Shown here: piece by piece, positions 2,194 through 60,795 of the stretch
How the letters are laid out: every line of letters starts with the position of its first letter
How positions within the stretch are numbered: the first letter of the stretch is position 1
From: a virus
Virus record (IMG/VR): IMGVR_UViG_3300046660_000352
Span: 1-64,000 of that record
Direction: 5' to 3' (one strand)
Length of the DNA: 64,000 bases
Made by a program: the position numbers and the translations under genes
The notes under the pieces: generated by a model
The model's input: the letters and a program-made list of their open reading frames with translations, nothing else
Told to the model about the DNA's origin: nothing
The model's database searches: none

Positions 2194-2230
2194 TTCCTGG
2201 GAGAATGCAAGCATGCCTACCGAGATTGCA
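2177..2230 (+). promoter_or_regulatory. Long inverted repeat burying the gp25-like start codon
   Basis: The arms 2177-2194 and 2213-2230 are perfect 18-base complements; with a G-U and two A-U pairs the RNA stem extends to 21 pairs (2174-2194 with 2213-2233). The right arm begins with the ATG of the next gene; the 18-base loop holds the GGGAG Shine-Dalgarno. A smaller, mutually exclusive hairpin (GCATTC 2191-2196 with GAATGC 2203-2208) would leave the start codon free. Translational control of the baseplate gene is inferred. Confidence 0.7.
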
Positions 2231-2632
2231 TTTCCGTTTCGCCTAGCGTCCGACGGCACTATCGCCGTCGAGACGAATCCGGACAGGCAGATCGCCCAGC
2301 ATGTGAATGCGCTCATCGGCACGCAGCCGGGGGAGCGGGTCATGCTCCCGGATTACGGGGTTCCCGTGGCTGATCTGCTGTTCGACCCTGACGCGTCCTT
2401 TGTCGCGCAGGAGATCAGCCGTGCCGTAACCACGGCTTTCAATACGTACGAGCCCGGTGTGGTCCTCCAGAAGGCGACCCCTATCCCGGACTCCACGCAG
2501 ATGTCCCTCGCTCGTATCGAGGTCGACTACATCCGCCGCGAGGACGGGGCGTCCCCTTCCAGCCTGGCTCTCCAGTCCAACACAGCAGTCGTCCGGGTCG
2601 GCGGCACCGTAAGCGAGGTCATCAGTGGCTGA
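2213..2632 (+). CDS. Baseplate wedge protein, gp25/W-like
   Basis: 139 residues, the usual length for the GPW/gp25 family. The signature part is at about residues 25-60: a helix with N-A-L-I-G-T, then Q-P-G-E-R-V-M-L-P-D-Y-G, then D-L-L-F-D-P. In contractile tails and related injection systems this protein forms the inner baseplate wedge around the tube, next to the J-like protein encoded directly downstream. The gene overlaps the next by 8 bases, implying coupled translation. The ATG lies within a long inverted repeat (2177-2230), so its translation may be controlled. Family assignment is from the motif. Confidence 0.88.
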   Translation: MPTEIAFPFRLASDGTIAVETNPDRQIAQHVNALIGTQPGERVMLPDYGVPVADLLFDPDASFVAQEISRAVTTAFNTYEPGVVLQKATPIPDSTQMSLARIEVDYIRREDGASPSSLALQSNTAVVRVGGTVSEVISG

Positions 2633-8917: not shown

Positions 8918-8928
8918 GAAGCCGTAAT
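8918..8928 (+). promoter_or_regulatory. GAAGCCGTAAT operator overlapping a start codon
   Basis: A single exact copy of the operator motif. Its last two bases are the first bases of the ATG of the AT-hook gene, and it directly follows the terminator at 8881. A bound regulator here would cover the translation start as well as any promoter. I see no good -35. Confidence 0.6.
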
Positions 8929-15359: not shown

Positions 15360-15652
15360 AGGCACCCGAGGGCTACGAGCACCTGGGTGAGGACTTCTGG
15401 GCCCGCGTCGAGCCGGACCCGGACACCGACTGCCTCATCTTCCAGTCCACCGCGACGCGCCCGTACTACCAGGGCAAGACCCTGCTGTCCTTCCTGACCG
15501 GCGGGGACGGCCGACAGAAGCACCGCGCGTGCAGGCGCCGGATGTGTGCCAACCCGGACCACATCCAGGACGGGCACTTCGACATGGGGACGCCGTACGC
15601 CCGGCGCCCCCGGTCGCGGAGTCAGTTCGCGCGGCAGTACTCACAGTGCTGA
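15356..15652 (+). CDS. Small HNH-like protein
   Basis: 98 residues, ATG in an ATGA junction. The C-terminal half has R-A-C-R-R-R-M-C-A-N-P-D-H-I-Q, matching the C-x4-C-x-N-P-x-H-hydrophobic pattern of small phage HNH nucleases. The first catalytic His is less clear (Q-K-H-R-A-C), so activity is uncertain. It may be a homing or nicking enzyme, or a zinc-binding remnant. It overlaps the helicase start by 7 bases. Confidence 0.6.
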   Translation: MKAPEGYEHLGEDFWARVEPDPDTDCLIFQSTATRPYYQGKTLLSFLTGGDGRQKHRACRRRMCANPDHIQDGHFDMGTPYARRPRSRSQFARQYSQC

Positions 15653-17286
15653 CGGTCGACCTGCACGGCTATCAGGAGTCGGCGGTCGACCGCGCTGTGG
15701 AGCGCGGCTCTCTCCTGATCGCGTACGAGATGGGCCTGGGCAAGACCGTCATCGCCCTGGCCGCCATTGAGGAGCTGCTGGAGAAGGGGGAGGTCGAGAC
15801 CGCCGTCATCGTGGTCCCGGCCAACCTGAAGTACCAGTGGGCCAAGTCCATCGCCCGCCTCACCGACGTGCCGACCCGCGTGGTCACGGTGCGCGAGGAC
15901 GGGCTGAAGCAGGAGATCACCGTCCCGACGGAGGAGTACTGCGTCCTGATCGACGGCGACGCGAAGAAGCGAGCCGGGCTGTACGCCAAGGTCAAGACGC
16001 TCCGGCCGGACTACGTGATCCTCGGCTACGAGAACGTCGTCAATGACTGGAACTACGTCAGGAGGATCAAGCCGGAGTGCATCGTCCTGGACGAGTGCAC
16101 GGCCATCAAGACCTTCCGGGCCCAGCGCACGCGGAAGATCAAGAGGCTCACGGCGCCGTTCCGCTTCGGCATGACCGGCACCCCGGTCGAGAACGGGAAG
16201 CCCGAGGAACTGTTCTCGATCATGCAGTGGGTCGACGACCAGGTCCTGGGCCGGTTCGACCTGTTCGACAAGACGTACATCGTGCGCAACCGCTTCGGCG
16301 GGGTGCAGAACTACAGGAACCTGCCGGTGCTGCACGCCAAGCTGGCCGACGTCATGGTCCGCAAGACGCGGCTGGACGAAGACGTCCGGCCGTACCTGCC
16401 CGAGGTGCAGGAGTCCGTCATCCCGGTCGTCCTGGACGCGAAGACGAGGAAGGCGTACCGGGCCATCGCGGCCGACCTGCTCGCCGAGCTGCGGGCAGCC
16501 GGGCCGACGATGGGTGACTTCGATCTGTTCGCGCACTACCACGGGGGAGAGGCGGCCAACGAGAACAGCCAGCAGGGCAAGATCATGAGCCGCATGCAGG
16601 CGCTCGACATGCTGCTGAACCACCCGGACCTGATCGTCATGTCCGGGCAGAGTTACGAGGAGAGCCAGGAGGCACGATCGCGCGGCGCCGAGAAGAAGGT
16701 GTGGCCGGGCTCGAAGTACGCCTACGAGGTGTGGCAGTCCGGCCTGCTCGATGACGTCACCACGGCCCCGAAACTGGACGCCGTGGCGGCAGCGGTCGAG
16801 GACATCATGGCGGTGCCCGGCAACAAGATCATCGTGTTCAGCGTCAACCCCGACATGCTGGACCTGCTCGGTGACCGGCTGCCGGAGGGCTCGTTCGTCA
16901 CCTACACCGGCCGCATGTCCTCGGCAGCCAAGGCCTATGCCGCCCAGCGGTTCGAGACCGACGGACAGTGTCAGGTGTTCCTGTCCTCCCATGCGGGGGC
17001 GTTCGGCACCGACCTGTACATGGCCAATTACTTGATCAACTACGACCTCGCCTGGTCGGCCGGGAAGCAGGACCAGATCAACGCCCGGCACAACCGCGCG
17101 AGCAGCCAGTTCAAGGACATCTACATCCTGAACGCCGTCACCCAGGGCACCACCGAGCCGCGCAAGCTAGCGATGCTGGCGCACAAGCGGAGGGTGGGCA
17201 GCGCCATCACAGACGGGCGCGGGGCCGACGAGAAGGGTCGGATCGAGAACGACGTTCAGACCCTGACGCAGTGCCTGGAGGCGTAA
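15646..17286 (+). CDS. SNF2/DEAD-type superfamily 2 helicase
   Basis: About 546 residues from GTG 15646, just before the previous stop; upstream sequence in this frame lies inside the HNH-like gene. Motif I G-L-G-K-T at residues 30-34, motif II D-E-C-T at 149-152, and motif III G-M-T-G-T-P near 177-182. The C-terminal RecA domain has I-I-V-F-S-V, F-V-T-Y-T-G, S-S-H-A-G-A-F-G-T-D-L and Q-D-Q-I-N-A-R-H-N-R-A. This is the order of a SNF2-like ATPase. It could remodel protein-DNA complexes or replication forks. The DECT box instead of DEAH is a mild variant. Confidence 0.85.
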   Translation: MLTVDLHGYQESAVDRAVERGSLLIAYEMGLGKTVIALAAIEELLEKGEVETAVIVVPANLKYQWAKSIARLTDVPTRVVTVREDGLKQEITVPTEEYCVLIDGDAKKRAGLYAKVKTLRPDYVILGYENVVNDWNYVRRIKPECIVLDECTAIKTFRAQRTRKIKRLTAPFRFGMTGTPVENGKPEELFSIMQWVDDQVLGRFDLFDKTYIVRNRFGGVQNYRNLPVLHAKLADVMVRKTRLDEDVRPYLPEVQESVIPVVLDAKTRKAYRAIAADLLAELRAAGPTMGDFDLFAHYHGGEAANENSQQGKIMSRMQALDMLLNHPDLIVMSGQSYEESQEARSRGAEKKVWPGSKYAYEVWQSGLLDDVTTAPKLDAVAAAVEDIMAVPGNKIIVFSVNPDMLDLLGDRLPEGSFVTYTGRMSSAAKAYAAQRFETDGQCQVFLSSHAGAFGTDLYMANYLINYDLAWSAGKQDQINARHNRASSQFKDIYILNAVTQGTTEPRKLAMLAHKRRVGSAITDGRGADEKGRIENDVQTLTQCLEA

Positions 17287-17304: not shown

Positions 17305-17376
17305 GGACGTCGAGTGGTTCTAAAGCCGTAATCGCATGGCACCATCAAGGCATGCGAGAAGAACCACTCGACGTCC
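17305..17376 (+). promoter_or_regulatory. 17-bp inverted repeat flanking an operator and a start codon
   Basis: Perfect arms 17305-17321 and 17360-17376. The 38-base centre holds AAAGCCGTAAT (17322-17332) and the ATG at 17352; the right arm covers codons 3-9. Only transcripts entering from upstream would contain both arms. This parallels the 2177-2230 repeat. Confidence 0.7.
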
Positions 17377-17486
17377 TGCTCCGTGAGGGGATTGGGGACG
17401 TCATAAGCCCACCCGAGGAGCGAGAGGACTGGGATCTGACCCCCGTCCGCCTGGCGCTCCGAGGTGCCCCAGCCGACCGCTGGTGA
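17352..17486 (+). CDS. 44-residue acidic protein, unknown
   Basis: ATG 17352 with only a weak CAAGG upstream; 44 codons. Its short sequence is acidic with a P-P-E-E-R-E-D-W-D segment and no hydrophobic stretch. Support for it comes from the context: it lies just downstream of an operator motif and its first codons form one arm of a 17-bp inverted repeat. It ends before the TTGACA promoter at 17514. Could be a small regulator or host-takeover peptide; no family recognised. Confidence 0.45.
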   Translation: MREEPLDVLLREGIGDVISPPEEREDWDLTPVRLALRGAPADRW

Positions 17487-17513: not shown

Positions 17514-17542
17514 TTGACATCCGCATATGCCAAACGTAGAGT
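17514..17542 (+). promoter_or_regulatory. Sigma-70/HrdB-type promoter
   Basis: TTGACA (17514-17519), 17-base spacer, TAGAGT (17537-17542). Drives the DUF4258-like gene at 17598. Downstream GTCCTC can pair with GAGGAC of the ribosome-binding site. Confidence 0.8.
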
Positions 17543-37100: not shown

Positions 37101-37150
37101 GAAAGCCCCCAGTCTCCCTCCATATCGGATTGGATTCTGGGGGCTTTCCC
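37101..37150 (+). terminator. Terminator
   Basis: GAAAGCCCCCAG (37101-37112) with CTGGGGGCTTTC (37137-37148), perfect 12-base stem, followed by CCTATT. Separates the acidic gene from the nucleotidyltransferase-like gene. Confidence 0.85.
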
Positions 37151-37172
37151 TATTCCAGCTAGAATCGAAGGC

Positions 37173-38165
37173 ATGGCCGGATACGAGTTCTACCTCAATC
37201 GCGCAATCACCCAGGGACAGCAGCCCGACATTCACACGGGCGCCTCCGGGTATTTCAGCACGCCCCAGGCAGGGCTCGACCCGCACATCTTCGACGGCGA
37301 CCACATCAAGCCGGACGTCCGCGACCACATCCTCGGCGTGCTTAATACCTACCTCGACGGCCACTACCAGGGCGTACGCGCCTGGCTGGCCGCCTGGCTG
37401 GCCGGATCCGGCATCTCCTTCCAGTGGGCCGGAGACCGTGGAAACGGCGACCTCGACGTCCTCTTCGGAATCGACTTCCCGAAGTTCTACGAGATGAACC
37501 CCACCTACCAGGGAATCTCCGAAGCCGAATTCTCCGACCTGATGAACTCGGACCTGAAGAAGAACCTGTGGCCGCACACCGCGATCACCGATTTTCATGG
37601 CCAGGTCTACGAGGTCACGTACTACCTGAACCCCGGAACCACGTCGAATTCCATCGCGGCCATCAACCCGTACGCCGCCTACAACCTCACCCGTGACCGC
37701 TGGGACATCCGGCCGCCGTCCCTGCCCACCGACCCCCACAGCCTGTACCCGAAGCACTGGTGGGACGCCGTGCAGACGGAAGAGGCCCACGCCCGCACGC
37801 TGATCGAGCGCTACAGCCACCTGCGCTCGACGGCCTCCAGCGCCTCCCCGAACTCGGCCACGTGGCACAACTCCCTGGCCTCCCAGAAGATCGTCGTCGA
37901 GCAGGCCAAGGCCCTCTTCGACGACATCCACATCGGCCGCAAGCAAGCCTTCGGCCCAGGGGGATCCGGCTACGGCGACTACTACAACTTCCGCTGGCAG
38001 GCACACAAGCAGGCAGGCACGGTCCAGGCCCTGAACTCCCTGGCCACAACGGACGTCGAGGCCCACAAGGCGCAGGAGACCGACCTCTACGGGGCTCCAC
38101 TCGATGACGCCGCCACCGCGCTCGCGAAGGCGGCTCTTTGGAACACCCCCTACCGGAGGTCGTGA
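37173..38165 (+). CDS. Nucleotidyltransferase-like protein
   Basis: 330 residues, ATG 37173. Near residues 86-105, A-G-D-R-G-N-G-D-L-D-V-L-F-G-I-D resembles the hG-x-G-x-D-h-D catalytic strand of pol-beta-type nucleotidyltransferases, followed by F-Y-E-M-N-P. The rest is helical with many Trp and His. It may modify tRNA or a small molecule; I cannot name the substrate. CTTAATAC at 37341 (codons 57-59) is just before the catalytic strand. Confidence 0.6.
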   Translation: MAGYEFYLNRAITQGQQPDIHTGASGYFSTPQAGLDPHIFDGDHIKPDVRDHILGVLNTYLDGHYQGVRAWLAAWLAGSGISFQWAGDRGNGDLDVLFGIDFPKFYEMNPTYQGISEAEFSDLMNSDLKKNLWPHTAITDFHGQVYEVTYYLNPGTTSNSIAAINPYAAYNLTRDRWDIRPPSLPTDPHSLYPKHWWDAVQTEEAHARTLIERYSHLRSTASSASPNSATWHNSLASQKIVVEQAKALFDDIHIGRKQAFGPGGSGYGDYYNFRWQAHKQAGTVQALNSLATTDVEAHKAQETDLYGAPLDDAATALAKAALWNTPYRRS

Positions 38166-55838: not shown

Positions 55839-56058
55839 ATTCGGGGAATTGGGGGATCGGGGGGATTTGCGGCAGTGGCGCCCGAGGCGCTAGGGTCATC
55901 GCGCTGTGTTCGTCTCGGCTAGGGATGGATGCGCAGAAAGCAACGAGCCCCACAGTCATGCAGTCCGGCCAGCCCGCCGGGTGACTGTGGGGCTCGTTGT
56001 GTTGTGGACCCGTGGTCAATTCGGGGAATTGGGGGGAGCGGAGATTCGGGGAATTGGG
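55839..56058. repeat. Three copies of ATTCGGGGAATTGGG
   Basis: Copies at 55839-55853, 56019-56033 and 56044-56058. The second lies in the perfect palindrome CAATTC-GGG-GAATTG (56017-56031). A partial copy CAATTCGGGG is at 55320. Two copies are 25 bases apart. These look like protein-binding sites. Confidence 0.7.
55942..55998. terminator. Strong bidirectional terminator
   Basis: Seventeen-base perfect arms (55942-55958 and 55982-55998: AACGAGCCCCACAGTCA with TGACTGTGGGGCTCGTT), 23-base loop, TTGT after. It lies within the non-coding region, 500 bases from the nearest upstream gene; it therefore ends a transcript whose origin is unclear. Confidence 0.85.
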
Positions 56059-60764: not shown

Positions 60765-60795
60765 TCGGGTAGATTACGGCTTCCGAAGCCGTAAT
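60747..60795 (+). promoter_or_regulatory. Promoter with near-perfect palindromic operator
   Basis: TCGACG (60747-60752), 17-base spacer, TAGATT (60770-60775). The palindrome ATTACGGCTTC-C-GAAGCCGTAAT (60773-60795) has perfect 11-base arms and covers the -10 and start site, the best operator of the window. Confidence 0.85.

Follow-up and report, generated by a model that had tools for sequence, protein, structure and literature searches.

In bacteriophage T4, the long early and middle transcripts of the genes e, soc, 49 and I-TevI carry a hairpin which hides the start codon, and late transcripts, which come from a promoter located within or next to the left arm of this hairpin, lack the arm and are translated, the effect being 100-fold for gene e (PMC3014915, PMC2988022). 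For sigG of Bacillus subtilis, a hairpin of at least 20 base pairs was proposed to block the translation of read-through RNA; RNA initiated at the promoter of sigG itself is unable to form it (PMC5942855). Inverted repeats of 17 bp near gene starts, the ESAS, were described for cluster K mycobacteriophages. They have one common consensus, precede both a 13-bp element and the start codon, and are little supported as mRNA hairpins (PMC3203893). Finally, T4 gene 25 has a conserved hairpin between the Shine-Dalgarno sequence and the AUG, which aids initiation (PMC3014915).

Two hairpins enclosing a start codon were identified in the window analyzed here, a stretch of 64,000 nucleotides taken from a virus record of 72,226 bases. 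Among annotated phages, those of Streptomyces such as BRock (Borockvirus) come closest, with 36-40% protein identity. One hairpin belongs to a 44-aa ORF behind a helicase gene, the other one to the gp25 baseplate-wedge gene. With a probability of roughly 0.7, these hairpins block translation except of a leaderless mRNA that begins locally. The trick as such is known from phage T4, and its leaderless form looks new.

As in T4 gene e and I-TevI, the start would be sequestered in a long RNA, which was computed here from folds, covariation and opening costs. The local mRNA of the gene e type has a leader with a Shine-Dalgarno sequence and starts at the late promoter TATAAATA, whereas a leaderless one is predicted here, with the promoter-like word inside the loop and a right arm made up of coding sequence that begins at the ATG or downstream of it. 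Since TATAAATA is absent from both loops, which have TGGCACCAT and TGGGAGAAT, the hairpins are placed outside the T4 late system, though they may work alike. With sigG they share the proposal that only read-through RNA of an upstream operon is blocked; sigG differs in its bacterial chromosome, its leader mRNA with a ribosome-binding site and its sporulation sigma factors. The ESAS are likewise 17-bp inverted repeats near starts in actinobacterial phages, but the arms found here are gene-specific in sequence, enclose the start and covary. Membership in the ESAS/SAS was rejected, as the two stems have no sequence in common and flank the start on both sides rather than preceding it; the 13-bp GGGATAGGAGCCC gave two weak matches against 2.35 expected, neither of them at the hairpin genes. 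T4 gene 25 resembles its homologous wedge gene in having a conserved hairpin in the initiation region, but the T4 hairpin helps initiation and the one at gp25 is proposed to mask the start. In Borockvirus, gp25 has a plain Shine-Dalgarno sequence and no hairpin.

The left arm of the first hairpin, GGACGTCGAGTGGTTCT (17305-17321, plus strand), is the perfect complement of the right arm (17360-17376), with zero mismatches over 17 bp and 38 nt between the arms; both AAAGCCGTAAT and the ATG at 17352 lie inside. This repeat, already reported in a first-pass annotation, was confirmed: the record contains five perfectly complementary 17-mer pairs at most 60 nt apart (longer repeats counted more than once), and none occurred in 60 dinucleotide shuffles of it. 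As RNA, the segment 17305-17376 folds with -44.1 kcal/mol (z -8.0). The annotation had missed an inner stem of 7 bp, in which TCGCATG (17332-17338) pairs with CATGCGA (17351-17357) and therefore with the start codon itself, and which has 91% of its cells paired in relatives. It had also left the ORF undescribed.

Judged by its protein, which is conserved across 39 loci, the 44-aa ORF MREEPLDVLLREG... (17352-17486, plus strand) is a real gene; the protein had zero matches in Pfam, PHROGs or phage records. Its codons 3-9 form the right arm, and synonymous variation is 0.10 in codons 2-9 vs. 0.24 in codons 10-42. A Shine-Dalgarno sequence was not recognized before the ATG, nor is one evident in the aligned sequences of relatives. 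The upstream gene (15529-17286, plus strand, start codon uncertain) encodes a SNF2-type DNA helicase, as had been annotated (Pfam SNF2-rel_dom, E 4e-28, and Helicase_C; PHROG 62, DNA helicase). The next gene downstream (17598) has a promoter of the ordinary sigma-70-like type (TTGACA-17-TAGAGT, 17514-17542, plus strand), which is kept in relatives.

The same design had been suggested for positions 2174-2233, and a conserved hairpin (z -7.1) indeed encloses the start codon of gp25 there (2213-2632, plus strand; Pfam GPW_gp25, E 4e-13), with the same -10-like word six nucleotides before the ATG. From the fold and the relatives, its left arm comprises 2172-2194 and its right arm 2213-2235 on the plus strand, the latter corresponding to the first 8 codons. 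The transcript of gp25 is predicted to start on its own ATG, and a GGGAG is located 9 nt 5′ of this codon. A search of bacterial genomes for gp25 returned none, blastn of both hairpin regions against phage records gave no match, and Rfam had 0 matches at the gathering score for the hairpins.

A search with the helicase as query yielded 56 relatives, of which 37 have the 17305 hairpin, in 21 distinct versions. The hairpin is real and conserved. Among the distinct versions, both-side changes occur at 3 pairs (5 cells), values reached by 1/500 and 0/500 shuffles, respectively; in the outer stem, for example, GGACGTC/GACGTCC is replaced by GCACGTC/GACGTGC in three relatives (L010, L011, L014). In total 96.2% of the cells are paired, compared to 30-46% in slid controls, and pairing in the outer stem is broken at two pair positions, in 4 and 2 sequences. 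One-sided changes that preserve pairing in the outer helix comprise 5 types leading to G-U on the plus strand and 0 leading to A-C, as expected if the RNA of the plus strand forms the helix. For the gp25 hairpin, 16 distinct relatives show both-side changes at 2 pairs (8 cells), with 96.5% of the cells paired. As the relatives are closely akin, this covariation stems from few independent events, which counts against the proposed model. It is likely that the hairpins act on RNA by masking the start.

The cost of opening was computed for the start region from -5 to +16 in read-through RNA and for the first 16 bases in RNA initiated at the ATG. In read-through RNA it amounts to 21.3 kcal/mol for the small ORF and 26.9 kcal/mol for gp25, in leaderless RNA to only 1.8 and 5.8 kcal/mol, with a median of 9.1 kcal/mol for 99 genes of the window. 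The local RNA is thus predicted to escape the masking and the read-through RNA is not.

According to this model, a polymerase entering from the upstream gene, i.e., the helicase gene or, for gp25, the tail genes, would transcribe both arms. The left arm would then pair with the first codons and hide the start, so that the small ORF and gp25 would not be translated from this RNA, while genes further downstream on it would be unaffected by the hairpin. A separate extended -10 promoter in the loop would start transcription at the A of the ATG and provide a leaderless mRNA without left arm, which would be translated. This way, the 44-aa gene and the wedge gene would be expressed only with their own promoter active, regardless of the upstream operon. 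We infer that such read-through RNA is produced and then silenced, and that the promoter follows a timing of its own. Against the model it has to be said that it gives no reason for silencing the wedge gene in read-through RNA of the tail operon. If it is correct, the classical trick of T4 gene e extends to relatives of Streptomyces phages and is joined there with leaderless initiation, a promoter in the loop and a transcript from the ATG being the most economical form of such a lock. It would offer a testable route, from sequence only, to separately timed genes inside phage operons, and would point to separate control of the conserved small gene that follows the helicase.

The promoter is suggested by the pattern TGNNANNAT-N6-ATG, the sole feature common to the two loops, which are otherwise unrelated in sequence. 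It appears as TGG-CACCAT at 17337-17345 and as TGG-GAGAAT at 2198-2206, both on the plus strand and with the ATG 6 nt on. The pattern is invariant in 21/21 distinct small-ORF and 16/16 distinct gp25 sequences, and in this record it is found at the two hairpin starts and nowhere else. Eight records with both genes contain exactly two copies each, always at these two starts. Shuffled genomes have about 0.4 copies per genome, the backward-read pattern had one match in 13 records (0 to 1 each), and other spacings between TGNNANNAT and an ATG revealed nothing recurrent. In the otherwise variable loop of the small ORF, the A and AT of the word never change although they are unpaired; the TG, which is invariant as well, is also part of the inner stem and its conservation is therefore not independent.

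The word is also retained in relatives without hairpin. In more distant relatives, gp25 has TGGGATGAT-N6-ATG (L235, L243), TGAGATAAT-N6-ATG (L237-L239) or TGAGATAAT-N7-ATG (L240-L242, L244), and the small ORF of L045 is preceded by TGAGATCCT-N6-ATG. As TGAGATAAT closely resembles the extended -10 box TGNTATAAT and is six or seven bases distant from the ATG, transcription would begin on the A of the start codon. In the suggested order of events, the promoter-like word came first and the hairpin later, in one subgroup.

Against the model, the match to TATAAT is only 3/6 for CACCAT and 4/6 for GAGAAT, neither word has a -35 box, and a consensus promoter scan reported neither of them. The -35 box would fall in the left arm, which is itself tied to the coding sequence, and this may account for its absence. 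Promoters of Mycobacterium tuberculosis as a rule have a -10 but no -35 motif; a TGN preceding the -10 raises activity, and a quarter of the genes are leaderless (PMC3898074). From the conservation and spacing of the word we infer that it is a promoter and that the start is on the ATG (17352 for the small ORF, which lacks a Shine-Dalgarno sequence); a local leaderless promoter in the loop is likely. The first-pass annotation had assumed that only read-through RNA from the helicase gene carries both arms, and had named the lack of a transcription start between 17322 and 17352 as refutation. The assumption holds provided that transcription starts between the arms, and the invariant word predicts such a start. 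The idea that a phage sigma factor reads the promoter was dropped, as relatives gave only weak region-4 matches and this record gave none. Separately, the gene at 37173 follows a terminator-like repeat (37130-37172), is without Shine-Dalgarno sequence and has TAGAAT-N7-ATG; it may likewise be expressed without a leader, and no hairpin masks its start.

Instead of acting as a switch, the hairpin could be present in all mRNA of the two genes, with no local promoter, and constantly damp translation to a very low protein level or be opened by a factor; the word in the loop would then be a Shine-Dalgarno sequence (gp25) or a part of the RNA structure. The GGGAG upstream of gp25 could indeed be a weak Shine-Dalgarno sequence, which also counts against the promoter, and in the word of the small ORF the TG pairs within the inner stem. 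Furthermore, wedge proteins of T4-like baseplates are needed in few copies. On the other hand, GGGAG is changed to GGGAC in L106 with the -10 word kept, which weakens the reading as Shine-Dalgarno sequence, and the small ORF has no recognized one, like the aligned sequences of its relatives. The word is retained at 6-7 nt from the ATG in relatives without hairpin, and opening costs of 21-27 kcal/mol would silence rather than damp. Constant damping is thus unlikely, although it is the strongest of the alternatives.

Somewhat less probable still is a site for RNase III or other processing, or a stabilizer at the 3′ end of the upstream message, with the masking of the start being incidental. Long perfect stems are generally substrates of RNase III, and the arms start about 10-18 nt past the upstream stop codons. 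However, cleavage of the right arm would hit the first codons and ruin the downstream message, and such a role does not explain why both loops have the -10 word at a constant distance. Neither a U-tract nor a terminator was found: intrinsic terminators (a stem followed by a T run) are absent at the two hairpins, where scans for ordinary sigma-70 promoters were negative as well.

Translational coupling, in which the hairpin is opened by ribosomes that complete the upstream gene and the translation of both genes is thereby linked, would fit the positions of the upstream stops, which precede the arms by about 10 nt at gp25 and about 18 nt at the small ORF. A terminating ribosome covers about 10-12 nt beyond the stop codon, though, and would not open a stem of 17-23 bp. 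Moreover, the gene upstream of gp25 differs among relatives while the hairpin is constant, making coupling very improbable. This gene (9-2162 in the window; L085, L090, L105, L109, L111) varies by what are apparently exchanged tail-fibre-like modules. After different tail-fibre-like genes, the left arm lies about 18-21 nt further upstream in L090/L092/L093, L105 and L111; in L112 it is gone and the -10 word is kept, which counts against the proposed model. It is possible, though less likely than not, that the two genes form a regulon in which only leaderless mRNA is translated, with a dedicated extended -10 promoter in the start-masking loop, and that the left arm was retained or rebuilt at shifted positions after module exchange (L090, L105, L111), so that the masking itself would be under selection.

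The word in the 17305 loop that had been called an operator, AAGCCGTAAT (17323-17332, plus strand), is repeated in the genome, mostly in intergenic positions. Its core CCGTAAT belongs to AAGNCGTAA, with 17 copies in the record, 5-12 in relatives and 0-2 for the backward control; of the form A[AGC]GCCGTAA, 12/14 copies are intergenic, whereas intergenic DNA makes up 8%. The description of the hairpin as built around an operator did not hold, as an essential role of the word is ruled out by L015, L029 and L033, which have kept the hairpin and lost CCGTAAT from the loop. CCGTAAT could therefore act, at best, as a dispensable second control on the local promoter. AAGNCGTAA may be the site of a putative phage regulator and is present in every relative searched. 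In the window it occurs at 8919, 11452, 17323, 25093, 42945/42959, 53446, 59906/59920 and 60774/60786, sometimes paired 14 bp apart, and includes one 23-bp palindrome, ATTACGGCTTCCGAAGCCGTAAT (60773-60795). A purely DNA-level element, i.e., a palindrome bound by a protein or a hot spot of recombination for which RNA is irrelevant, could draw on this word and on the gene exchange beside the gp25 hairpin, but it hardly comes into consideration, as the two stems have no shared sequence, changes in the outer helix preserve G-U pairs of the plus strand and the right arm is under coding constraint.

The start-enclosing hairpin is a two-gene device. The suggestion that it might be a rule in this phage was not borne out, as the only convincing cases in a scan of the window are the 44-aa ORF and gp25, and in a relative of 105,651 bases such hairpins are likewise located solely at these genes. 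A 25-nt hairpin at 55934-56006 lies in a region of about 800 bases with poor coding character and TTCGGGGAATTGGGG repeats; it has neither a convincing gene nor an Rfam match and may be an origin or another element acting in cis. In the relative behind L033, the arm pair CGTTCCGTAATCCTC/GAGGATTACGGAATG touches an ATG codon (L119, 8782-8843), as does a 24-bp hairpin in L124 (3198-3276, positions 103198-103276 of the record).
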